A stretch of 11,599 nt of DNA from Hepatocystis sp. ex Piliocolobus tephrosceles (Eukaryota > Apicomplexa > Aconoidasida > Haemosporida > Plasmodiidae), in NCBI GenBank assembly GCA_902459845.2, contig CABPSV020000375.1, positions 1 to 11,599 on the forward strand, read 5' to 3'. The notes under the pieces were generated by a model. That model was given only the letters and a program-made list of their open reading frames with translations. It made no database searches and had not been told where the DNA came from. The translations under genes were made by a program, and so were the position numbers. Shown here piece after piece: positions 1 to 11,382 of this stretch (positions within the stretch are counted from its first letter, which is position 1; every line of letters starts with the position of its first letter).

Positions 1-3000
1 TCTTTACTATAGTAGTATTAAGTCGGAAGGGTATTTTGAATTTGGTATCATAAATTGAATCATTTAAATATATATTATTATTATTGCAAACAATTCGTGG
101 TGTTGGAATTGATTTGTTATAATATTCGTTGTTTAACTCAGAATGTTTTTCTAAAAAAAATATTTTTTTATATAAGTTGTTTTTATGTAATAGTGAAAAT
201 TTTTTAGTTTTTTTTAACTTTTTAAAATTGGTGCGACAGTTTGTTATTATATTATACATGCTATTTTGTTTTTTCCATTTTGAATTTATATTATTTATTT
301 TTCTTTTACATTTCGAATATAAGTAAAAAATATATAAACATTTTAAACACATGAAATGTTGTGTTAGATTATAAAAAAAAAATGTATTATCTAGGTTATA
401 ATAATTATTATTTCTGTTTAAACTTAAATAAAATCTTATATACATATTAATAATATTAAAAATGTATAAGATTATTTTAGCATTTAATTTTAAATAAATA
501 AACAATTCACATATATGTATCCATACTATTGCTTCTAGGTAAATGTTTTGTAGGTTAATCTGTTTTGTAAATGTATAGCGGTTAATATGGCTATTAATTT
601 TGTTGTTATCATGGATATTACTATTATGATCATTACTGTTGTTATCACTACCGATTTCACACCTACTGTTTTGAAAATTCTGATTGTAAATGTATGAATT
701 AAGCATATCTTTTTTATATTCATGGTGTTCTATAGTGTCTTTACTATTATTATCATATTTTAATTTGCTTAAACTAAACAAATTTATATCTGATACATTT
801 ACACCCCTATCCGAATAAAAATAGCGGTTACTATAACATTTATTATTATTTTTAGAGAAACTAAAAAAACAATAATTATGTATATTGTCACTCCTAATGT
901 TATAACACATACTATTTGATTGTGTAATACCATTGGAAAATACATTCTTTTTAATAAAGCTGTGATTTTCTTGTATATGTAAATCACATTTAATCTTATT
1001 CTTATTTATGTAAGACATTATTTTTTTCATATTATTATATATATACATGTCCGATTTGTTTTTTTTCTTTTTCTTCATTTCTTGTTCCCTCATTTTATAA
1101 AAATGGTTAAATATTATTAGTAGCATGGGCATAGAGCAAGGTAATAAATTAATATTGCTCATATCCATATAGTATTTTTTTTCTATTTTACTTAGATTTA
1201 TATTAGTATTATCATTATTTCTTAATTCGAGATAAGATGGAACATGTGTATTTAAATAACTGCTATTATTGTATTGGTTTGTATTAACTGATTTTATTTT
1301 TTTATTTTGACTATACCGAATATTTATGGGAGTTGTGTATTGTTTTTGTGTAGAGTCATTTTTTTTTATTTTATTTTTTTTTTTTTTTTTCATATTAGTG
1401 TTTGCCTCTTCTGATATGTTTAATGCTATTTGAATTTTGTTAATTTCATCCATAATGCTATTGGTTAAAATTCTATTTTGTAGATTCTTTTTTTTTATTA
1501 AGTTATTATTTTTATTTGAGTTGAAGTGTATTTTATGATTTTTTTTGTTACCATTTGGTTCGTTGGTATGTAAAGGTTTATTATATTCAAAGTTATACAA
1601 TTTGTCACGGTTGCTATTGTTACCGCTGTCACTACTTCCAATACTGTCACTACTTCCAATACTGTCACTACTTCCAATACTGTCACTGCTTCCAATGCTG
1701 TCCCCACTACCACTGTCACCACGATCACACATCGATAAAAACTCCTGGGTATCATAATTTATATCTTCCAATAATTGAGTTCTGGAAAACGTAGAACACT
1801 TATTTTGTAAAGAGTAACTGTTTGATATGTTTTTTAGTAAGTTATGTTTAAAAAATGCATCTTTTCGTTTTTTTTTATTTACATCTCTTTGTTTGTTTTT
1901 TCTTTTTGGTTTCTCCCAATAAAATAAAACATTATAAAATCCATAAGATATTAGTATATAATAGATGTACAAAAAAAAAAAAAAAAAATTATTTGAATTA
2001 TATTTAATGGCTTTTAATGCAAATAAAAAAAATGTCTTATTACATGTTTTTTTTGAAAAGCTATGACTATTAATATGGGTAAATAAGTTTTTATTTTTTT
2101 TATTTTTATAAGATTCTTTAGTGGTACACGATTCATATTTATATTTCCCTTTTTTAATGTCATTATAATTAACAGTATTAATCATTTTTTGCTTTTTGTT
2201 GCTCTTATTTAATTCTACAACTTTTTTACCATAAGTTATTTTACCACCACTATCGTCATCTTTTTTTTTTTTTTTTTTTTTATTATTTATAACATTGTGA
2301 TTATCTATTGTTTTATATCCTTTTTTATTTATTAATTCGTTTTCGTATATGTCATCCTTATTAAATTTGTTGCACAGAAATTCTTTTGTTTCTTCACAAG
2401 TCATCAAATTATGGATACTGCATATTTTGGTAACAGGTGGCAATTTTTTTGCTTCTCCGTTATTTATTGTTAGGTCAGCTATATTTTTTTCTTTTTTTTT
2501 ACATGTGTAAAACATATCACTAACATTCGTCACAGATTCGTAAAATTTGGGAGATTTCTTTTTTAAAAGTTTGATTAAGGATTTATACTGTTTATTGTGA
2601 TAAGTCAAAATGTCACCTTTATTATTATTGTTATTATTGTTATTATTGTTATTATAATTATTTTTTTTTTTTTTCCCCATTTTTATTTCGTTTGTATGAT
2701 CAAAGTTGCTACTACTACTGCTATTATTACTGCTATTATTACTGCTATTATTACTACTGCTATTATTACTACTGCTATTATTACTACTGCTATTATTACT
2801 ACTGCTATTATTACTACTGCTATTATTACTACTGCCATTACCACTGCTATTACTACTGCTATTATTACTACTGCCATTACCACTGCTATTACTACTGCTA
2901 TTACTACTGCTATTACTACTGCTATTACTACTATCATTGCAAACTCTGTAACTTTTTCTATGTGTCTTTTTTGTCCTGTTCAACCCCTTTTCTAAGTATT

Positions 3001-6000
3001 GCTCACTTTTTGGATAAAAAGTACTACTAACTACTATGGATAACAAAAAGAATGGAAGTGCATTATTATTGTCGCAATTTTGTAATAAAAATTTTTTACA
3101 TATATATACACAATTTTTAATTTTCAATTCATACAAATAAATAATACACAGATAATAATAACTTAATAAATTATTACAGTCTATCTTAATACTTTTTATA
3201 ATATATTTATGACTTAATTTTAATAATTCATTATAATCATTTTTTAAAACATTTTCTATATTAATCTTTTTATCAATAAGATCATTTTCATAAAGTATAC
3301 TTACTTCTTGTATATTGTCATAAAAATAATTTGTATTAATTTGTTTTAACAAAGAAATACCAATTATATAATACAATTTACTGCTTCTTATTTTGTTCAT
3401 ATCGGTTTTATACTCCAATATATATTTCTTTGTTGGTATGTTAGACTTTTCATTGTTATAGCTATTTAGTTTATTATGGTTGCATATCTTGTTTTTTTTT
3501 TTATAATAAAAAGTTGAATATAAATTCTCTTCTGATAAATACTGCATGTTACTATTTAAGTTTTTCAGATGTGATAAAGACTTTTTATTCTCTTCAGTAA
3601 TGTAACTTTTTTTTTTTTTTTTTTTTTCACACAAGTAGGTACTACTTATATTTTTCAAAATAGTACTATCATCAAGATTTATATTTTTACTATTATTTTT
3701 CGTAACATTTTTATCGTTCTCATTGTCATCACTACTATTCATTGATTTGTCGTTTTTTTGTAACTTTTGTTTTAACTTACTAAAAGTGTTTTTACACTTG
3801 GTTTGGGTTAAACTAGTTTTTGTTTGGTTCAAGATGTTTGTAGTAATTTTTTTATATTTAGTATCCACTATAAAATTAAATTTGTGTGCATTTTTTAAAA
3901 AAAAAAATAAATATTTTAAAGAGTTATGTACGCATATATGAGCACTTGTCAAATAATTAAAATTAACTTTAAGTTCGAAGAATATGTCAAAAAAAATAGA
4001 AAATTTAAATGATTTAATTTGGTTTATTTTTTCGTAATGTTTTTGTTTGTCAAATGAATGGTAATTATCTAAGTGTAAATTATTTTTATCATTTATATAA
4101 TTTGTGCTATATGTATTTTTTATGTAATCATCATATTCAATATCTTCATTTTGCATATAAAAAAAAAGGTTACAATTTTTTATATTTTTACTGGTTTTGT
4201 GTTTTTTATCCTTATGTTTGTTAGTGTTTCCTACCAATACTTTGTGGTGGTTAATCAACTTACAATGTATATTATTAATATATCGCAAAATCGAAACAAC
4301 TGAATTATAATTAGAGTATAAATAATTTAAAAGAGCTAATCTTTGATAAATCGAAAATAATAGGTATGTATTAAATCTAGTAAAATATGCTAATGTTATT
4401 ATTTGTTCATATTTTTTAATAAGAAAGTATTTTCCTTTGTTATATATTTTTTTTTTTAATTCTTCTACATTTACTTGGTAATATTGATTATATAAAAAAA
4501 CATTTTCAATATGTTTTTTCGTTTCTAGTGATAAATTAAGATTATAACTGTTGTTAGTATTATTATTTAAATACATTTTCAGTTCGTCAAATGAATACAA
4601 ACTGATGTAATAAGCATTATTGTTTACTTTCTGTGTACCTTTAAGACTCTTCTTTGTTTTTATATCTGTTATATGATTTTTATGTAATAAAGGATTTGTC
4701 CGTTTTTTTTTTAAGTTCTTTTTTTTTATGTATATATTTTTTGGTTTTTCTACTTTAAATAGTGAATATCTTTGTATATATTCTGTTTCATTTTTTATAC
4801 TATTTTGTATATTTTTTTTGTAACATTGTTTTTTGTAGTCCGTAAAATCGTCTGGTTTATCACATATTTCTGGGTGGAATAAATTAAAATCGGAATATAT
4901 ATTAGAGTCATTTTTATTATCTTTTATTTTTGATAAAAAGAACGAAGGTATATTTATATTATCTTTTATGGAGTAACCACTACCTTTTCTAAACCCATCT
5001 CTGTTTTCATTAAAAATGGTATGAATAGTGGATGGTATTTTATTTTTTTTTTCATTTGGTTTTGCGTTATTTTTTATCAAACTGTTACAATCGTCAGTAT
5101 AACATGATAGGTTGTAAGGGTAATAACAAGTATCAGTACCTTTGTTATAAATGTTATATAATCTTTCTCTACGAATTTTATTTTTCAATCTAAACATTTC
5201 AATGGAAGTAATATTATCAATATTGTTAGCATTGTTGTTGTAATTGTTACTATGATCGTTAGCATATCCACTTGTATTATAATAACTTTTTACATAAACA
5301 AAGGAATAAGGCATATTCAAATAAGGTACTAAAATAAAAAATAACATTTCTGTAATTAGAAATAAAAATTTGATATGTTCATAATTTTCAATATTTATTT
5401 TTGTATTATAATTTATAATTTTTTTTTTAAACGTATCTCTTAATAAATCAATAATTTTACTATTATAATTTTGTTTTTTATTATTTATTAACATAGGAAA
5501 AGTATAGAATGATAAATTTTTTTTTAATTCAGGTTGTTGTTTGATTGTTATTATGTTATAATTTTCATCTTTTAATATTTTACTAACAGTTTGTGTTGTT
5601 TTATCTTTATCGTTTATATCTTTTTTATTAGTTACTGGGAATGTGGGCGAAATATGTTCTTTCCCAAACGTAGTATTGTATAATATTTTTTCTTTTTTTT
5701 TATTTTTTATTAAAAAATTTTCTTTTATATATTTTTTATAAATAGCGATATTTTCATTAATGTCCATTTTGGATCTGTGAAACAATTTATGAAATCTATA
5801 TCGCACTTTCTGTTTTTTTTTTAATATATTTGAAAAATTCAAATATTCATTTATGTCTTTTTTATGTGTGTTCATATATATACATTCGTCAAAAATGTAA
5901 ATATATAAAAAATTATAAATTAGTATCTTCAATTCGTTGTTTTTGAAATTATAAAAAATGTCAAAATTGTTACTGTTGTTACTGTTTTTATTGTTGTTAC

Positions 6001-9000
6001 TGTTTTTACTGTTGTTATTGTTTTTACTGTTGTTACTGTTTTTATTGTTGTTATTGTTTTTACTGTTGTTACAGTTTTTACTGTTATTGTTTTTACTGTT
6101 ATTGTTTTTACTGTTATTGTTTTTACTGTTGTTGTTGTTTTTACTGTTGTTATTGTTGTTATTATTGCTATTATTGTTGTATTTATTAGTATCACATTCG
6201 CTGTTATGGTCTTCACCCAGTTTATTCTTCTTTTTGTTATTAATCTGGTTGTCCTTTAATCCTGGTAAAAGTTCAGTTTCTTCTTTTTTTGCATATACAC
6301 GTCGATTATAAATATTAAACATGCTTTTATTATTTTTTTCGTTCAAAAACTGTTTCATTAAGCTATCATTTTTTTTATAACTATTATGGCTCTTACTTAA
6401 ACGTTTATTATCCACACAGAAATCATTGAAAGTGTCTTGTTCCTTTTGGTTAATAATATTGCTACAATTGTTATTAAGATAGCACTTATTACTATGTTCC
6501 TTATTAGTATCTAACATCAGTATAACTTGATTTTTATAATCTTCTTTACTTACCATTTCGATAGCACTATTATTTGATGTAACATTACTATTAATATTGA
6601 TAAATGCGTTTATGTTATTCAAACTTATTGGGTAATTTATATTTTTATTGTTATAATCTATTTTTTCTAAATACAGATTATGGTTAATATCACTTTGGTT
6701 CATATTATTATTTAAATCATCATTTTTATTATTTAATATGTTACTTACATTTTTAAAATAACAATCGTTAGTTATATTGCTTAAGTTACCGTTTGTAACA
6801 TATTTAAAATTTTTTTTTTTTTTATCTTTATTTGTCATTTCTTTTTTCGTTTCACTTAAATTTCTTAATGTCTTTTCTGTTCTAATTTTTGTACTGATTA
6901 GAGAATGTAATAGATTACTTCCGTATATCTTTTTTTCGTTTTTTTTATGTAACTTGTCACACTTGCCATCTAAAATATCGCTCTTTGAAATATTCTTTAT
7001 ATTTAAATAATCATTCTTGTTATGTTGAACGTATTTATTTTTTTCGTCTTCTACTGTTTCATTTTCACCAGTTTTACCATTTTTAGTAAACTCCTTATAT
7101 CGATCTATTACGTTAGCATCATTTTCACAAAAAGCAAAAAAAAATTTCGAAAAAGTATATAATAAACATTTTTCATTCGTTAAATAATTTTTCTGCTGAT
7201 TTGGGTGGTTAAAACTGATAGTATTATGCAAGAAAATAATTCGTTTTAAGACATATAAATTTTTTTCATAAGTAAAAATATTTGCATCATAAAATTTAAT
7301 AATTTTATTTAAATATAAATAATAAATTAAATTTTTTAAATTATAATTATTTTCATAAAACATGTGTTTTATTTCTATATGGTTAATCAAATTCAAATAG
7401 ATAAATATGTGTTTTTTTAAACCATCAAAAATATATTTGTGATTCACACTAATAGAATTTATAATAAACTGTTTAAAAATGTTATCATTAAATAAGTTCA
7501 AATAAAAAATACGTTTATTTAGTTTGTTTAATTTGTTAAGTTTATTTAATTTATTTAAAAAAAAATTAAAATTTTCATTATGACTGTTATTATATTGACA
7601 GCAATAATATTCTTCTAATTCATAATTTAAATAATAAAAATTGCTGTTGTTTTTTATTTGCATAACAAACTCTTGAAATGCATAAACAGCTTTGTTATTA
7701 TTTAAAAATAATTTATTTTTAATTATGTTATGTTTCAAGTTAGGTATCTTATTTTTATATAGCTGATAATAATGATACATATCTTCATTACTATAATTAT
7801 AAATGTTACTATTCAAAGGAGTATCATATTTTTTATTACTTTTTAAAGTATGAATGCGTGATCCACTCAAATAGCTGCTTTCCCCTAAATCCGGCTGTTC
7901 CTCCTTTTTTTCATCATTGCCTATGGAGAAATAATTATTATTGTTTTTTTTTTTTCTGGTACTATCATTTGTGGTACTATTTTTTAACATCTCTGTGTGT
8001 GATTTACTATCATGTGAGATTCTTTTTTTTTTAAAGATATTATGTACAGTACCATTTTGTAACTTACTATTTTTTAACATATTACTTATTTTCAGTTGCC
8101 TTTTTTTTTTTTTTATATAATTATACTTTCCTTCATCGATATTTATATCAAAAGAATTTAATTTGTTAAATTGTTCATTAAGATCAACAGCTTTCCATTT
8201 TTTTTGATAATTTTCAAAAAGATAATATAAATAAAAATAAACATGTCTATATAAGTAGGTAGAAATTGTTATAAAATTTAATTTACTGTATAATAATGCA
8301 ACTACTAATAATCCTTCTATAATATGAATTTGTTTAAAATAAGAAAAATAAATTAAAACATCAAAAAAATAATTATAAAGGTAATATTTTTTATTTTCTA
8401 TTTGTGTCAATTTTTTAAGAATTTTTTCTTTTTTATGTAAATTTTGTTCTTTGTTATATTCTAAATTTGTAACATATTTTAATTTTGTTATGTATTTTAT
8501 TTTTTTTTCTAATTTTATATTTTTTAAAATGTTTGTAAGTCGTTCTAAAGATTTTACTTTATATGTTATTTTTAAAAATAATAAAAATTCATCTAACGTT
8601 AAATAATATCTTTTTTTTTTTTTTCTTTTTTTTTTTTTTTGATAATAGTTACGTCTGTTTTTGTCCTTAATCACGCTGGTTTTGTCCTTAATCACGCTGG
8701 TTTTGTCCTTAATCACGCTAGTTTTGTCCTTAATCACGTTAGTTTTGTCCTTAATCACGTTGGTTTTGTCCTTAATCACGTTAGTTTTGTCCTTAACCAC
8801 GTTGGTTTTGTCGTTAATCACGTTAGTTTTGTCCTTAACCACGCTAGTTTTGTTATTAACCACGCCGCTTTTAACCTTTCTAATGCTTTTTTTAAGGATG
8901 TCTATTTCCTTTTTAAAACCGTAATCAACCATATCTGTTGCTATTCTCTTATATTGTAAAAACGTGTTTTTATTTTTAATAGTATTAACATGTATATCTT

Positions 9001-10663
9001 CGTTATACTTGTTACAGTCATACGTGTTTAACGATGCATTATTTGTATCTTTAAATTGTTTTGTCTCTGTCAAAGGATTTGTATTAATTGGGGTCTGATT
9101 AGTTGATGCAGTAAAGAGATGGTTATTATGTGTTATTAAATTTTTTTTTTTATAATTTTCTATTTCGAAAATATTCTGTTCTTCATATCCATCGAATGGA
9201 CAAACGTCATTTATTTTTTTAACACTATTAACCGATTGTAAATCATGTATGTTGGTTTTACTTACGCACGTTGAGTTATTTTGATTGCAAACTTCTGTTT
9301 TGTTTATCCCTTTATCGTGTTTTTTGTTTTTTATAATGGCTTCTTTTTTTTTTTTACTCTTACCTTTTTGATAATATTCATCAGGTTGTTTCTTTTCCAA
9401 GTCCAACTTAGCACAATAACTATCTATTTTTTTTTTTAATTCATATGAAAGTGCATTGCTTACTTTAAATTTTGAACTAGCTATTTTTTTTTTCCCTATA
9501 TAGTAGTATTTGTTTTTTTTAACTTTTCTTTTAACATATATATATTCATAAAACTTTATTTTTGCATTTTGAAAATCATTTATATGAATATATGCGATAA
9601 CAATAGGAATATATAATTGAAACAATACAGAATTGAAATTTATATATTTTATGTTTTTTTTATTTATTTCATATTTGAATTTGTTATTTTTACTAAATAG
9701 GTATATATCAAAGTAGCTAAAAGAGGGTAATGTTATAATACTATTATTAATAATCTTGTCAATTTTTTCAAAATCTGTACGTTTCAAAACATAATTAAAA
9801 TTAATACGTTCGTAATGTTTATGTTCATTGGTTTTATGGTTGTAGTGATATTTTATGTTACGGCTGTAACGATTTGTCTCGACCATGTTTTTATTAATAC
9901 GATACGAGTTTGTAAACGGTTTATTGTTTATACTGCTATTGTTTATACTGCTATTGTTTATATTATTATTGCTGCTATTGCTGCTATTGCTGCTATTGCT
10001 GCTATTGCTACGATTACTACTATTGCTACGATTGCTACGATTGCTACGATTGCTACGATTGCTACGATTGCTACGATTGCTACGATTACTACGATTGCTA
10101 CGATTACTACTATTTCTATTTGTACTATTATTTGCATTATTATTGCTGTTGATACTACCTAATGGATGAAATATGTATTCCTTTTTATAAGTTTCGATTG
10201 ATGTATTTTGTTCGAGTTTATTTTGTACTAACTCATTTTGTGGGGACTCATTTTTTGCTATATTATTACAAATACTATTAGTAACATTACTATTGTTTAT
10301 ATAGTTAGTATTAACATCGGCCTCTCTATATATTAACGATTTTACTTTTTTATTTAAGTCCAAAATTTTTATAATTTGTTTATATCGGAAGTTGTTAATG
10401 ATTGGTTTGTTTTTATTTAAAAAACTAGTGTAATAAGTAATCACTACGTTTTTAAATGTATCATAATTTTCTATTACTTTTTTAAACTTATGGTAATTTA
10501 ATAATTTATTGTTATTACGAATATGTTTCCTCAAAATATCTCGAAGTTTAATTTTGTCATTTTTTTTTATGCTATCGTTATGTATACTTTTGCTCAACGA
10601 TCTATCTGTATGATATTTTTTTAACTCTCCTTTATTTATTGTCCCGTATAAAATATTCATCAT
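1..10663 (-). CDS. Giant TPR-like protein with low-complexity inserts, 3' end outside window; candidate TTC7/YPP1-type scaffold
   Basis: Triplet-by-triplet reading shows one open frame of 3,554 codons from ATG at 10663 to position 2, with no in-frame stop; the left edge cuts it, so the true protein is longer. The start is the first of two adjacent ATGs (protein begins MMNILYGTINKGELKKYH). The upstream in-frame stop is at 10745-10747 with no earlier ATG, and A at -3 suits initiation. No intron is needed inside the window. The protein is Asn/Lys/Ile/Tyr/Ser-rich; hydrophobic helix-like islands are separated by hydrophilic inserts and tandem repeats, as is typical of Plasmodium. Several islands match the TPR pattern, and their order resembles TTC7/YPP1, whose members work with EFR3 and FAM126 to recruit PI4-kinase III-alpha to the plasma membrane. 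That function is inferred. No signal peptide is visible and no catalytic motif was recognised. The alternative is a Plasmodium-specific helical-repeat protein of unknown function. The coding call is near certain; the family is moderately supported. Confidence 0.95.
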   Translation of the reverse strand, partial: MMNILYGTINKGELKKYHTDRSLSKSIHNDSIKKNDKIKLRDILRKHIRNNNKLLNYHKFKKVIENYDTFKNVVITYYTSFLNKNKPIINNFRYKQIIKILDLNKKVKSLIYREADVNTNYINNSNVTNSICNNIAKNESPQNELVQNKLEQNTSIETYKKEYIFHPLGSINSNNNANNSTNRNSSNRSNRSNRSNRSNRSNRSNRSNRSNRSNSSNRSNSSNSSNSSNSSNNNINNSSINNSSINNKPFTNSYRINKNMVETNRYSRNIKYHYNHKTNEHKHYERINFNYVLKRTDFEKIDKIINNSIITLPSFSYFDIYLFSKNNKFKYEINKKNIKYINFNSVLFQLYIPIVIAYIHINDFQNAKIKFYEYIYVKRKVKKNKYYYIGKKKIASSKFKVSNALSYELKKKIDSYCAKLDLEKKQPDEYYQKGKSKKKKEAIIKNKKHDKGINKTEVCNQNNSTCVSKTNIHDLQSVNSVKKINDVCPFDGYEEQNIFEIENYKKKNLITHNNHLFTASTNQTPINTNPLTETKQFKDTNNASLNTYDCNKYNEDIHVNTIKNKNTFLQYKRIATDMVDYGFKKEIDILKKSIRKVKSGVVNNKTSVVKDKTNVINDKTNVVKDKTNVIKDKTNVIKDKTNVIKDKTSVIKDKTSVIKDKTSVIKDKNRRNYYQKKKKRKKKKRYYLTLDEFLLFLKITYKVKSLERLTNILKNIKLEKKIKYITKLKYVTNLEYNKEQNLHKKEKILKKLTQIENKKYYLYNYFFDVLIYFSYFKQIHIIEGLLVVALLYSKLNFITISTYLYRHVYFYLYYLFENYQKKWKAVDLNEQFNKLNSFDINIDEGKYNYIKKKKRQLKISNMLKNSKLQNGTVHNIFKKKRISHDSKSHTEMLKNSTTNDSTRKKKNNNNYFSIGNDEKKEEQPDLGESSYLSGSRIHTLKSNKKYDTPLNSNIYNYSNEDMYHYYQLYKNKIPNLKHNIIKNKLFLNNNKAVYAFQEFVMQIKNNSNFYYLNYELEEYYCCQYNNSHNENFNFFLNKLNKLNKLNKLNKRIFYLNLFNDNIFKQFIINSISVNHKYIFDGLKKHIFIYLNLINHIEIKHMFYENNYNLKNLIYYLYLNKIIKFYDANIFTYEKNLYVLKRIIFLHNTISFNHPNQQKNYLTNEKCLLYTFSKFFFAFCENDANVIDRYKEFTKNGKTGENETVEDEKNKYVQHNKNDYLNIKNISKSDILDGKCDKLHKKNEKKIYGSNLLHSLISTKIRTEKTLRNLSETKKEMTNKDKKKKNFKYVTNGNLSNITNDCYFKNVSNILNNKNDDLNNNMNQSDINHNLYLEKIDYNNKNINYPISLNNINAFININSNVTSNNSAIEMVSKEDYKNQVILMLDTNKEHSNKCYLNNNCSNIINQKEQDTFNDFCVDNKRLSKSHNSYKKNDSLMKQFLNEKNNKSMFNIYNRRVYAKKEETELLPGLKDNQINNKKKNKLGEDHNSECDTNKYNNNSNNNNNNNSKNNNNSKNNNSKNNNSKNNNSKNCNNSKNNNNNKNSNNSKNNNNSKNSNNNKNSNNSNNFDIFYNFKNNELKILIYNFLYIYIFDECIYMNTHKKDINEYLNFSNILKKKQKVRYRFHKLFHRSKMDINENIAIYKKYIKENFLIKNKKKEKILYNTTFGKEHISPTFPVTNKKDINDKDKTTQTVSKILKDENYNIITIKQQPELKKNLSFYTFPMLINNKKQNYNSKIIDLLRDTFKKKIINYNTKINIENYEHIKFLFLITEMLFFILVPYLNMPYSFVYVKSYYNTSGYANDHSNNYNNNANNIDNITSIEMFRLKNKIRRERLYNIYNKGTDTCYYPYNLSCYTDDCNSLIKNNAKPNEKKNKIPSTIHTIFNENRDGFRKGSGYSIKDNINIPSFFLSKIKDNKNDSNIYSDFNLFHPEICDKPDDFTDYKKQCYKKNIQNSIKNETEYIQRYSLFKVEKPKNIYIKKKNLKKKRTNPLLHKNHITDIKTKKSLKGTQKVNNNAYYISLYSFDELKMYLNNNTNNSYNLNLSLETKKHIENVFLYNQYYQVNVEELKKKIYNKGKYFLIKKYEQIITLAYFTRFNTYLLFSIYQRLALLNYLYSNYNSVVSILRYINNIHCKLINHHKVLVGNTNKHKDKKHKTSKNIKNCNLFFYMQNEDIEYDDYIKNTYSTNYINDKNNLHLDNYHSFDKQKHYEKINQIKSFKFSIFFDIFFELKVNFNYLTSAHICVHNSLKYLFFFLKNAHKFNFIVDTKYKKITTNILNQTKTSLTQTKCKNTFSKLKQKLQKNDKSMNSSDDNENDKNVTKNNSKNINLDDSTILKNISSTYLCEKKKKKKSYITEENKKSLSHLKNLNSNMQYLSEENLYSTFYYKKKNKICNHNKLNSYNNEKSNIPTKKYILEYKTDMNKIRSSKLYYIIGISLLKQINTNYFYDNIQEVSILYENDLIDKKINIENVLKNDYNELLKLSHKYIIKSIKIDCNNLLSYYYLCIIYLYELKIKNCVYICKKFLLQNCDNNNALPFFLLSIVVSSTFYPKSEQYLEKGLNRTKKTHRKSYRVCNDSSNSSSNSSSNSSSNSSGNGSSNNSSSNSSGNGSSNNSSSNNSSSNNSSSNNSSSNNSSSNNSSNNSSNNSSSSSNFDHTNEIKMGKKKKNNYNNNNNNNNNNNKGDILTYHNKQYKSLIKLLKKKSPKFYESVTNVSDMFYTCKKKEKNIADLTINNGEAKKLPPVTKICSIHNLMTCEETKEFLCNKFNKDDIYENELINKKGYKTIDNHNVINNKKKKKKKDDDSGGKITYGKKVVELNKSNKKQKMINTVNYNDIKKGKYKYESCTTKESYKNKKNKNLFTHINSHSFSKKTCNKTFFLFALKAIKYNSNNFFFFFLYIYYILISYGFYNVLFYWEKPKRKNKQRDVNKKKRKDAFFKHNLLKNISNSYSLQNKCSTFSRTQLLEDINYDTQEFLSMCDRGDSGSGDSIGSSDSIGSSDSIGSSDSIGSSDSGNNSNRDKLYNFEYNKPLHTNEPNGNKKNHKIHFNSNKNNNLIKKKNLQNRILTNSIMDEINKIQIALNISEEANTNMKKKKKNKIKKNDSTQKQYTTPINIRYSQNKKIKSVNTNQYNNSSYLNTHVPSYLELRNNDNTNINLSKIEKKYYMDMSNINLLPCSMPMLLIIFNHFYKMREQEMKKKKKNKSDMYIYNNMKKIMSYINKNKIKCDLHIQENHSFIKKNVFSNGITQSNSMCYNIRSDNIHNYCFFSFSKNNNKCYSNRYFYSDRGVNVSDINLFSLSKLKYDNNSKDTIEHHEYKKDMLNSYIYNQNFQNSRCEIGSDNNSNDHNSNIHDNNKINSHINRYTFTKQINLQNIYLEAIVWIHICELFIYLKLNAKIILYIFNIINMYIRFYLSLNRNNNYYNLDNTFFFYNLTQHFMCLKCLYIFYLYSKCKRKINNINSKWKKQNSMYNIITNCRTNFKKLKKTKKFSLLHKNNLYKKIFFLEKHSELNNEYYNKSIPTPRIVCNNNNIYLNDSIYDTKFKIPFRLNTTIVK
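440..541 (-). other. TPR-like helix pair, residues 3375-3408
   Basis: The stretch YLEAIVWIHICELFIYLKLN (3375-3394) is followed by AKIILYIFNIINM. Val-Trp-Ile-His at 3380-3383, then Glu-Leu-Phe, a turn at Leu-Asn, Ala3395 and a second helix match a TPR. In TTC7 proteins the post-linker TPR has a closely similar Ile-Trp-Leu, Ala-Glu-Leu-Phe/Tyr pattern. Trp is very rare in this protein, which makes Trp3381 notable. The family's last TPRs would then lie beyond the left edge, which agrees with the missing stop codon. Confidence 0.5.
1374..1390 (-). repeat. A17 tract in the transcript, Lys run
   Basis: A 17-base T run on the plus strand encodes consecutive Lys near residue 3092, next to a further K/N-rich stretch. 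It lies between the SIGSSD repeat and the last TPR-like block. Confidence 0.85.
1628..1699 (-). repeat. Four 18-bp units encoding S-I-G-S-S-D
   Basis: Four tandem 18-base units encode SIGSSD (residues about 2989-3012), preceded by an irregular Gly/Ser/Asp lead (RGDSGSGD). Three units are identical in DNA; the high-coordinate one carries two synonymous act-to-gct changes. The repeat is acidic and Ser-rich, so it could be phosphorylated, and it contrasts with the basic composition around it. Confidence 0.95.
1919..2032 (-). other. Very hydrophobic segment, residues 2878-2915 (TPR helix pair or membrane segment)
   Basis: The segment runs FFLFALKAIKYNSNNFFFFF (2878-2897) and then LYIYYILISYGFYNVLFY, ending in Trp2916. 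Five consecutive Phe codons come from an 18-nt A tract on the plus strand (1971-1988). The first part, Ala-Leu-Lys-Ala-Ile followed by Asn-Ser-Asn-Asn, looks like a TPR helix B plus the inter-unit turn, and the rest like the next helix A. It is also long and apolar enough (2893-2915) to score as transmembrane. The collinear position after the previous TPR block favours the TPR reading. Confidence 0.45.
2261..2281 (-). repeat. A21 tract in the transcript, seven Lys codons
   Basis: Twenty-one consecutive T on the plus strand encode exactly seven Lys (residues 2795-2801), just after Asp-Asp-Asp in the plus-strand order. The reading frame is kept on both sides. Such coding A tracts are tolerated in Plasmodium but are slippage-prone in most organisms. 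Confidence 0.9.
2708..2932 (-). repeat. Ser/Asn tract with 12- and 15-bp units
   Basis: The tract encodes residues 2578-2652. It contains 12-bp units near 2720-2743, six perfect 15-bp units (gct att att act act) at 2744-2833, then two copies of a longer block beginning gcc-att-acc-act (2834 and 2873) that add Gly codons. The mixture shows nested expansion. It sits about 16 residues after the TPR-like tandem, inside what would otherwise be contiguous TPR units. Confidence 0.95.
2978..3385 (-). other. TPR-like tandem, residues 2427-2562
   Basis: This is the most convincing TPR stretch. It begins SSKLYYIIGISLLKQ (2427-2441). After a short polar insert it reads ELLKLSHKYIIKSIKIDCNN (2479-2498), LLSYYYLCIIYLYELKIKNC, VYICKKFLLQNCDNNNALPF and FLLSIV, ending QYLEKGL (2555-2561). 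The cadence of helix, Asp-Cys-Asn-Asn turn, helix, Asp-Asn-Asn-Asn turn, helix is about 34 residues, the TPR period, with Asp/Asn where TPRs have the inter-unit turn. In TTC7 proteins a 'Leu-x-x-Gly' helix followed by two such units has the same order. A Ser/Asn repeat follows directly. Confidence 0.65.
3607..3627 (-). repeat. A21 tract in the transcript, six Lys codons
   Basis: Twenty-one consecutive T on the plus strand encode six Lys (residues 2347-2352) plus parts of the flanking Glu and Ser codons. The frame continues without a break on both sides. Its length equals the tract at 2261-2281. Confidence 0.9.
4274..4450 (-). other. Central TPR-like block, residues 2072-2130
   Basis: The block reads NKGKYFLIKKYEQIITLAYF (2075-2094), then TRFNTYLLFSIYQRLALLNY and ends SVVSILRYI (2121-2129). 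Gly-Lys-Tyr followed by a helix, an aromatic pair, Phe2097 and Tyr2100, then Leu-Leu-Phe-Ser-Ile, resembles the TTC7 central region without needing a gap: a Gly-Gln-Tyr turn, a helix ending in aromatics, a Phe-x-x-Trp/Tyr helix and a final helix carrying Leu-Leu/Leu-Arg. This is one of the best local arguments for that family. I could not run an alignment. Confidence 0.5.
5321..5398 (-). other. Hydrophobic helix, residues 1756-1781, resembling the TTC7 'leucine-rich helix'
   Basis: The segment INIENYEHIKFLFLITEMLF continues into FILVPY. An acidic/polar start is followed by a Leu/Phe/Ile-rich stretch containing Ile-Thr-Glu (1770-1772). TTC7-family proteins have a comparable helix (acidic lead, run of leucines, Ile-Ser/Thr-Glu) just before their central TPRs, and here it also precedes the central TPR-like block. 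The match is short and made from memory of the family pattern, so it counts mainly as part of a collinear set. Confidence 0.4.
5969..6175 (-). repeat. Asn/Lys/Ser low-complexity tract (KNS/KNNS repeats)
   Basis: About 205 bases are built almost only of the plus-strand triplets gtt, att, act and ttt (Asn, Asn, Ser, Lys), encoding residues 1497-1565 with KNNS, KNNNNS and KNS units and a single Cys. Asn alternates AAC and AAT. This is a typical Plasmodium Asn-rich insert, and it ends close to the hydrophobic stretch YNFLYIYIFDECIY. Confidence 0.95.
7110..7690 (-). other. Helical island containing an LNK repeat, residues ~992-1185
   Basis: Roughly 190 residues are depleted in long homopolymers and rich in Phe, Tyr, Leu and Ile. 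It starts near AVYAFQEFVMQ (992-1002), includes two adjacent Cys (a YYCC motif) and continues through segments such as HIFIYLNLINHIEIKHMFYE to CLLYTFSKFFFAFCEND. The hydrophobic periodicity suggests several amphipathic helices, plausibly divergent helical repeats. No exact TPR signature is visible. A run of five LNK tripeptides (1036-1050) interrupts it. Confidence 0.4.
7514..7558 (-). repeat. Five 9-bp units encoding Leu-Asn-Lys
   Basis: Five consecutive Leu-Asn-Lys tripeptides (residues 1036-1050) are encoded by 45 bases with synonymous changes between units: Leu as TTA, CTT or CTA and Asn as AAT or AAC. The synonymous variation shows the peptide is older or under more constraint than the fresher arrays elsewhere. 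It lies inside a helical island rather than in a typical disordered insert. Confidence 0.9.
8207..8386 (-). other. Hydrophobic helical segment with TPR-like pattern, residues 760-819
   Basis: About sixty residues are rich in Tyr, Phe, Leu and Ile with few Asn or Lys, unlike the flanks. The core GLLVVALLYSKLNFITISTY (784-803) has the Ala/Leu-Tyr and Leu-Asn-Phe spacing of a TPR helix A to helix B turn, followed by a very aromatic helix (RHVYFYLYYLFENY). A preceding segment (Phe766-Tyr775) could be another helix. This may be a folded island with divergent TPR units. A membrane segment is less likely, because Arg, His, Lys and Glu recur every few residues. Confidence 0.45.
8609..8641 (-). other. 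Basic Lys/Arg tract, residues 675-685
   Basis: The codons read Gln, four Lys, Arg, four Lys, Arg (QKKKKRKKKKR), directly after the seven-residue repeat array. The composition is that of a monopartite nuclear localisation signal. However, it arises from T14 and T15 runs on the plus strand separated by one C, and poly-Lys is common in this genome, so a targeting role is only a possibility. Confidence 0.6.
8660..8869 (-). repeat. Ten 21-bp units encoding T-(S/N)-V-(I/V)-K-D-K
   Basis: Ten exact 21-base units fill 210 bases and encode residues 599-668. In protein order the first unit is degenerate (SGVVNNK), then TSVVKDK, TNVINDK and TNVVKDK, followed by three TNVIKDK and three TSVIKDK. Adjacent units at the low-coordinate end (8660-8722) differ by at most one base, while those at 8807-8869 diverge, so expansion probably occurred from the low end. 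The seven-residue period with charged Lys-Asp-Lys and an apolar Val-Ile pair is unlike the surrounding Asn/Lys composition. It is followed by a Lys/Arg tract. Confidence 0.97.
9533..9631 (-). other. TPR-like helical hairpin, residues 345-377
   Basis: This is the first clear helix-turn-helix-like island of the giant protein. It reads IPIVIAYIHINDFQNAKIKF around residues 352-371. The spacing Ala-Tyr (357-358), Asp-Phe (363-364), Ala367 and Phe371 fits the second half of a TPR unit, where small and aromatic residues pack two helices. It follows the RSN/SSN repeat region and precedes a Lys-rich linker. In TTC7-family proteins an N-terminal TPR with a similar 'Y...G.Y..A...Y..A' pattern occurs. 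One degenerate unit alone is weak evidence. Confidence 0.55.
9968..10114 (-). repeat. RSN/SSN tripeptide repeats (9-bp units)
   Basis: Two nine-base periods are joined: att-gct-gct on the plus strand (Ser-Ser-Asn) at 9968-10006 and att-gct-acg (Arg-Ser-Asn) at about 10007-10111. Ten Arg codons of the type CGT lie at nearly even spacing, with a few units where act replaces gct or acg. The region encodes residues about 184-232 and forms a basic, Ser-rich, probably disordered linker. Near-identical units suggest recent expansion by slippage or unequal exchange. Confidence 0.95.
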
Positions 10664-10680: not shown

Positions 10681-10770
10681 AATATATACGTTTTGAATCA
10701 AAAGAATAAAATAAAAACGTATCCAAGCAAAACAAGTAGTTAAACTAAAACTTGTCCAAACAAAAAAAAC

Positions 10771-11270: not shown

Positions 11271-11382
11271 TGTCTGTGTAAATATGCTTGTATAAATATG
11301 CTTGTATAAATATGCTTGTATAAATATGCTTGTATAAATATGCTTGTATAAATATGCTTGTATAAATATGCTTGTATATGTA
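11271..11382. repeat. 14-bp tandem array, eight units
   Basis: Eight 14-base units fill exactly 112 bases. Units 2 to 7 (11285-11368) are identical copies of tgcttgtataaata. The first (11271-11284) has three changes and the last (11369-11382) two. Identical central units with degenerate ends are typical of a young minisatellite. It lies about 610 bases upstream of the main ATG in the presumed promoter region. Confidence 0.97.

Follow-up and report, generated by a model that had tools for sequence, protein, structure and literature searches.

A giant TPR-containing protein of Hepatocystis, possibly a strongly diverged and expanded counterpart of the PI4-kinase scaffold TTC7

Analysing a contig of Hepatocystis sp. 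ex Piliocolobus tephrosceles (CABPSV020000375.1 of assembly GCA_902459845.2, which comprises 12.39 Mb in 611 contigs), whose entire 11,599 bases form the window considered here, we find that a gene on its minus strand encodes a giant haemosporidian scaffold of tetratricopeptide repeat (TPR)/alpha-helical repeat type; that the product contains TPR is well supported. An initial annotation of the window had gone further and read five hydrophobic islands, whose order it likened to that of TTC7 proteins, as a greatly expanded parasite version of TTC7/YPP1, the scaffold of phosphatidylinositol 4-kinase (PI4-kinase) III-alpha, and of the EFR3-TTC7-FAM126 module. TTC7 identity is suggestive rather than proven, the chances being about evenly balanced, and its strongest support comes from the C-terminal tail of the Plasmodium orthologs.

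The gene is a single frame without a stop, running from a stop codon at 10744 to the window end at position 2 and giving at least 3,578 residues. Its 3' end lies beyond the end of the contig; judging by the orthologs, about 200 residues are missing, and a search of the assembly using the last 170 residues of one ortholog did not find this part. A protein search with residues 2040-2600 retrieved 15 proteins, exclusively from Plasmodium and with names that give no function. They are up to 3,435 residues long; the shortest, a P. cynomolgi record of 2,034 residues, is curtailed towards its N-terminus, and the remaining 14 all have at least 2,924. Neither this search nor a second one with the joined core, in which none of 7,997 candidates was retained at E<=10, reached a relative outside Plasmodium, the sensitivity of both being limited. 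Conserved blocks account for 1,481 of the 3,578 window residues in the alignment with the 15 Plasmodium proteins, the remainder being low-complexity or poorly aligned. A tree built from the conserved core of the window protein and 14 named Plasmodium rows, without the short record from P. cynomolgi, puts the window protein, 54.9-61.4% identical to the other rows, on a long branch (0.55) next to the rodent malaria parasites with support of 98/96; this position would agree with Hepatocystis or a related haemosporidian, though a long-branch placement is unsure.

One to two TPR units with the helix-turn-helix motif are predicted from sequence comparison, and island 3, in which the initial annotation had read two TPRs, does contain a TPR. 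Searched against the PDB at E<=10, a profile of islands 3 and 4 matched four sequences, all of them TPR proteins (two designed TPR proteins, SKI3 and TTC37; best E 0.069), and Pfam TPR_17 was recognised in one of five ortholog pieces (E=1.6e-5) and in one of three full orthologs scanned (0.0034, below the Pfam cut-off). A phmmer search of the PDB yielded six weak matches headed by kinesin light chain 1, likewise a TPR protein (E=0.064), which aligns with residues 2942-3050, mostly insert. Foldseek, run on the first of two AlphaFold models (input: a piece of the P. gallinaceum protein plus 12 of the 14 remaining orthologs), returned mostly TPR proteins among the 50 listed rows of 676, none under E=0.05; these rows count little, because the predicted local distance difference test score (pLDDT) of the model is 31. 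Further C-terminal TPRs had been expected to the left of the window: the conserved blocks of the orthologs do continue there up to the C-terminus, but no TPR was recognised in them by Pfam and PDB searches (last 60 columns).

The feature most reminiscent of TTC7 lies outside the window, at the C-terminus of the orthologs. In all 15 Plasmodium orthologs, only four residues separate the motif PxxPFxxxP from the end of the protein (e.g. CPIIPFNLFPFINL). The same motif stands within the last 20 residues of 119 of the 120 vertebrate TTC7B rows (SSPAVPFTIIPRVL and similar, three residues from the end), rows that are close relatives and amount to few independent cases; the orthologs thus possess the motif at the very C-terminus, the position read for TTC7/YPP1 from these vertebrate rows. 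It occurs nowhere in 121 other open reading frames (ORFs), 27 of them bacterial TPR proteins. C-terminally anchored comparison with the TTC7B tail gives the orthologs scores of 21-28; a score of 21 is reached by none of 22,871 pseudo-C-termini taken from the orthologs' conserved core, the best real C-terminus among the 121 other ORFs scores 14, and composition-shuffled tails attain the ortholog median in a fraction of 4.65e-4 of 200,000. It should be noted that the tail match had been noticed before it was tested and was compared in vertebrate TTC7 rows only, and we therefore regard it as a strong lead for TTC7 rather than as proof.

All five islands sit exactly where the initial annotation had placed them, jointly spanning 440-5398 (Table 1; islands numbered in residues from the first Met, ATG at 10663), and all lie within blocks conserved across the 15 Plasmodium proteins, except that island 3 extends 12 residues beyond its block. 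What had been described as long inserts between them are in part low-complexity or poorly aligned stretches, but also contain further conserved blocks (e.g. residues 2189-2293, 2710-2744 and 3186-3256), and conserved blocks are found before and after the islands as well. Two Trp columns alone are invariant in all 16 rows, W2940 and W3405.

In their best order-preserving placement on TTC7B, the five islands, taken unchanged, beat 190 of 200 TPR decoy stretches (which overlap one another and derive from 27 proteins) and all 200 other stretches; with the tail added, the score on TTC7B exceeds that on 200/200 TPR decoy stretches and 200/200 other stretches. Compared with TTC7 296-843, the conserved C-terminal half outscores all 200 column shuffles; its score is reached by 11 of 200 shuffles in 34-residue blocks and by 6 of 200 permutations of island order when all blocks of the C-terminal half are used. 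With lenient gaps, ranks 1, 2, 3, 4 and 6 among 81 single proteins go to the five TTC7B rows from vertebrates. As for the claim that the islands are ordered as in TTC7, these comparisons do not establish that order by itself exceeds chance, because 22 of 200 block-shuffled TTC7B sequences equal or exceed the five-island score and 31 of the 120 island orders without the tail (the true order counted) do as well as the true one; with the tail, 18 of 240 do so.

These block shuffles are the first of several results that weigh against TTC7 identity. Against whole TTC7, as many as 22 of 200 block shuffles attain the score of the C-terminal half, and 44 of 200 do so without the C-terminal tail; overall, the shuffles reaching the collinear score amount to 0-11% with the tail and 3.5-26% without it. 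If the tail is omitted and gaps are treated more strictly, TPR decoys outrank every TTC7B row, and strict-gap alignment scores are not above those of shuffles. TTC7A ranks 35th of 81 with stricter and ninth of 81 with lenient gaps, and inclusion of the tail still leaves 7 of 200 TPR stretches that equal or exceed its score. Placed independently, four of six islands fall on the collinear map with 20-residue windows, and with 24-residue windows the best window lies there for one of six, island 4. Island 4 indeed finds its best TTC7B window at 568-571 at both lengths; that of island 1 is at 320 with 20 residues, the place then being outside the best three with 24, and that of island 5 is at 696 with 20 residues and at 800, then 696, with 24. 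The best windows of island 3 (384 and 107) fall off the map, and that of island 2, at 765-769, is away from its collinear place near 397, so that a by-eye register of island 2 near 397 was dropped.

Standard searches point in the same direction. TTC7B was not listed at E<=10 when the PDB was searched by HMMER with the full alignment, with the joined core (4 rows) or with four island profiles (5 rows each); hhalign of the core against vertebrate TTC7B gave a probability of only 0.1-0.2%; the family TTC7_N (PF19440) was unmatched in the window protein and in the three of the 15 orthologs scanned; and TTC7B is absent among the 50 Foldseek rows listed of 676, both AlphaFold models (the second built from 6 rows) being unusable with pLDDT 31 and 33. 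Likewise, neither EFR3 nor FAM126 (Hyccin), the other parts of the claimed module, was found in a genome search whose controls were uninformative; a weak EFR3_ARM match on another contig (C15) was rejected, being below the cut-off, interrupted by an in-frame stop and surrounded by short ORFs only. Nothing specific emerged from Pfam with the window protein or from per-island hhalign against 70 targets; the last 26 residues of one ortholog, as well as a tail-containing profile, found no match in the PDB, and the sole match of the full-alignment profile there was ryanodine receptor 2 (E=0.021), via a charged stretch. The initial annotation had named TTC7/YPP1 as the top match to be expected in profile and structure searches, and since such searches were made and list no such match, we do not file the protein as a TTC7 member.

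Caution should also be exercised in reading these negatives. The profiles are shallow (number of effective sequences, Neff, 1.6-1.8 and 1.0), as the listed rows of the TTC7 search (the best 120 of 2,293) all came from vertebrates and no relative beyond Plasmodium was reached, and the profile and structure tests are weak owing to these shallow profiles and the unusable models. TTC7_N was not found in a search of the genome assembly, which had no working control, and neither was the PI4KA N-terminal family PF19274, in an incomplete assembly and again with no working control. The absence of TTC7_N was therefore rejected as a disproof of TTC7, and a missing HMMER match is weak evidence, since PF19274 escaped detection although the genome has a kinase gene best matching PI4KA. 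This gene is an open frame of 5,039 codons on a separate contig (C140) with a PI3/PI4-kinase domain; a 743-residue piece of it has PI4KA as best PDB match (E=1.3e-19), narrowly ahead of PI4KB (3.3e-17), and on this similarity it is probably the parasite PI4KIII-alpha, which would then be very large, too. Two further PI3/PI4-kinase genes are present in the assembly, on contigs C433 and C77.

The likeness might instead come from a haemosporidian TPR scaffold without any special tie to TTC7, built of general repeats with lineage-specific insertions and serving another complex, in which the resemblance would reflect the common TPR pattern and a chance tail; we give this explanation a substantial chance, though one clearly short of even. 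In hhalign against the 70 targets, the matches of single islands with generic bacterial TPR proteins equal or surpass those with TTC7 (islands 3 and 4: best bacterial TPR P 0.00063 vs 0.19 for TTC7B; C-terminal end: best 0.003 vs 0.038 for the TTC7 profile, in second place among the 70), and agreement with it also comes from the lead of the TPR decoys in the chain test without the tail and with stricter gaps, and from the two protein searches, which at limited sensitivity reached relatives in Plasmodium only. It leaves the tail to coincidence, although chance would hardly put PxxPFxxxP at almost one and the same position in TTC7B and in every one of the 15 orthologs, and although islands plus tail fit TTC7B above all 200 TPR decoy stretches. 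Generic TPR proteins such as the designed TPRs and SKI3/TTC37 share the unit near residues 2507-2549, but they match in one or two units only, and the motif is missing from all ORFs tested.

That the protein belongs, in diverged form, to some other known TPR family, such as SKI3/TTC37 or the subunits of a large TPR complex, is unlikely. SKI3 and TTC37 are the only natural PDB proteins matched by the profile of islands 3 and 4 (E=1.3), but this match is a single TPR of 38 residues with E above 1, no second region and no other profile matched them, and extended similarity over several TPRs was not found. That the islands are mere hydrophobic stretches of an AT-rich coding frame with no shared fold, as the low confidence of both AlphaFold models might suggest, is highly improbable: conservation of the islands extends to all 15 orthologs, many of the columns are invariant and one island has a TPR match, so that they are more than chance hydrophobic stretches.

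Compared with TTC7B/TTC7A (YPP1 in yeast, NPG in plants), the orthologs share a TPR in the C-terminal half and the PxxPFxxxP tail, and the islands can be placed in order on TTC7B. Island 5 with its invariant Trp was traced onto TTC7B 696-717, which overlaps helices that bind EFR3 (599-616, 690-707 and 712-723, according to PMC11661448). The differences are the length (about 2,900-3,400 residues in full-length orthologs vs 843 in TTC7), the lack of a profile-level match, an N-terminal half without recognisable TTC7_N, and the partners EFR3 and FAM126, which were not found. Of the greatly expanded parasite TTC7 first proposed, what stands is the expanded TPR protein, the TTC7B-like tail of its orthologs and a PI4KA-like kinase gene; a TTC7 match by profile or structure is what it lacks. 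Should the protein be a strongly diverged, expanded counterpart of TTC7/YPP1/NPG, which at about even odds is the reading we favour over any other single one, its C-terminal TPR half would bind the parasite PI4KIII-alpha, the scaffold would dock the kinase on a plasma-membrane anchor, and the docked kinase would make phosphatidylinositol 4-phosphate (PI4P) at the parasite plasma membrane; a plant parallel for such a scaffold mechanism is outlined in PMC8774046.

Beyond the islands, the N-terminal half (window 5600-9820) holds five conserved blocks with a total of 569 residues, vs 386 positions of TTC7_N; these blocks were rejected as TTC7_N, their best windows being scattered. Within an insert, at window 8660-8851, there is a tandem heptapeptide repeat of the KDKTNVI type with seven exact or near-exact units, and upstream of the gene, at window 11292-11375 on the minus strand, six head-to-tail copies of ACAAGCATATTTAT are found.

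Table 1. Coordinates of the coding frame, islands, conserved blocks and inserts in the window.
Feature	Window position	Residues	Strand	Remark
Coding frame from first ATG	2..10663		-	at least 3,554 residues counted from Met
N-terminal conserved block	9383..9820	306-451	-	no specific TTC7 match
N-terminal conserved block	8147..8614	708-863	-	no specific TTC7 match
N-terminal conserved block	7136..7489	1083-1200	-	
Asn/Lys/Ser low-complexity insert	5981..6208		-	
Conserved block	5600..5980	1586-1712	-	
Island 1, Leu-rich helix INIENYEHIKFLFLITEMLFFILVPY	5321..5398	1756-1781	-	resembles by eye TTC7B 320-345 (EEALLLLLISESM)
Island 2, KGKYFLIKKYEQI then aromatic helices	4274..4450	2072-2130	-	
Island 3, TPR-like units	2978..3385	2427-2562	-	
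TPR core LSHKYIIKSIKIDCNNLLSYYYLCIIYLYELKIKNCVYICKKF	3089..3217	near 2507-2549	-	PDB profile matches and Pfam TPR_17
Ser/Asn low-complexity insert between islands 3 and 4	2705..2938		-	
Island 4, helix pair ALKAIKYNSNNFFFFFLYIYYIL...FY	1919..2032	2878-2915	-	
Trp immediately after island 4	1916..1918	2940	-	invariant column, 16/16 rows
Island 5, Trp-containing stretch YLEAIVWIHICELFIYLKLNAKIILYIFNIINMY	440..541	3375-3408	-	holds invariant Trp 3405, codon 521-523

The available literature leaves room for such a scaffold. A 2023 review (PMC10543664) states that the annotations of Plasmodium and Toxoplasma gondii include no accessory protein for PI4KIII-alpha, and suggests a novel mechanism; PI4P has been detected at the parasite plasma membrane (PMC10543664 and PMC8764524), and PF3D7_0419900 is described in PMC8764524 as the PI4K of class III alpha, whose deletion was not obtained in P. 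falciparum and which gave slow growth in a P. berghei screen. Among the titles found by searching open-licence literature, none reports an apicomplexan TTC7, EFR3, YPP1 or STT4 protein. None of the 15 Plasmodium records names a function for the protein, so that any function firmly established for it would be a novelty, and a named TTC7 candidate addresses how the kinase reaches the membrane. Were it true, for which the prospects appear only marginally below even, that a TTC7 scaffold has been kept in malaria parasites at about four times its usual length and missed by homology searches, parasite PI4KIII-alpha would thereby gain its first known accessory subunit, and the parasite would need no 'novel mechanism' of kinase recruitment.

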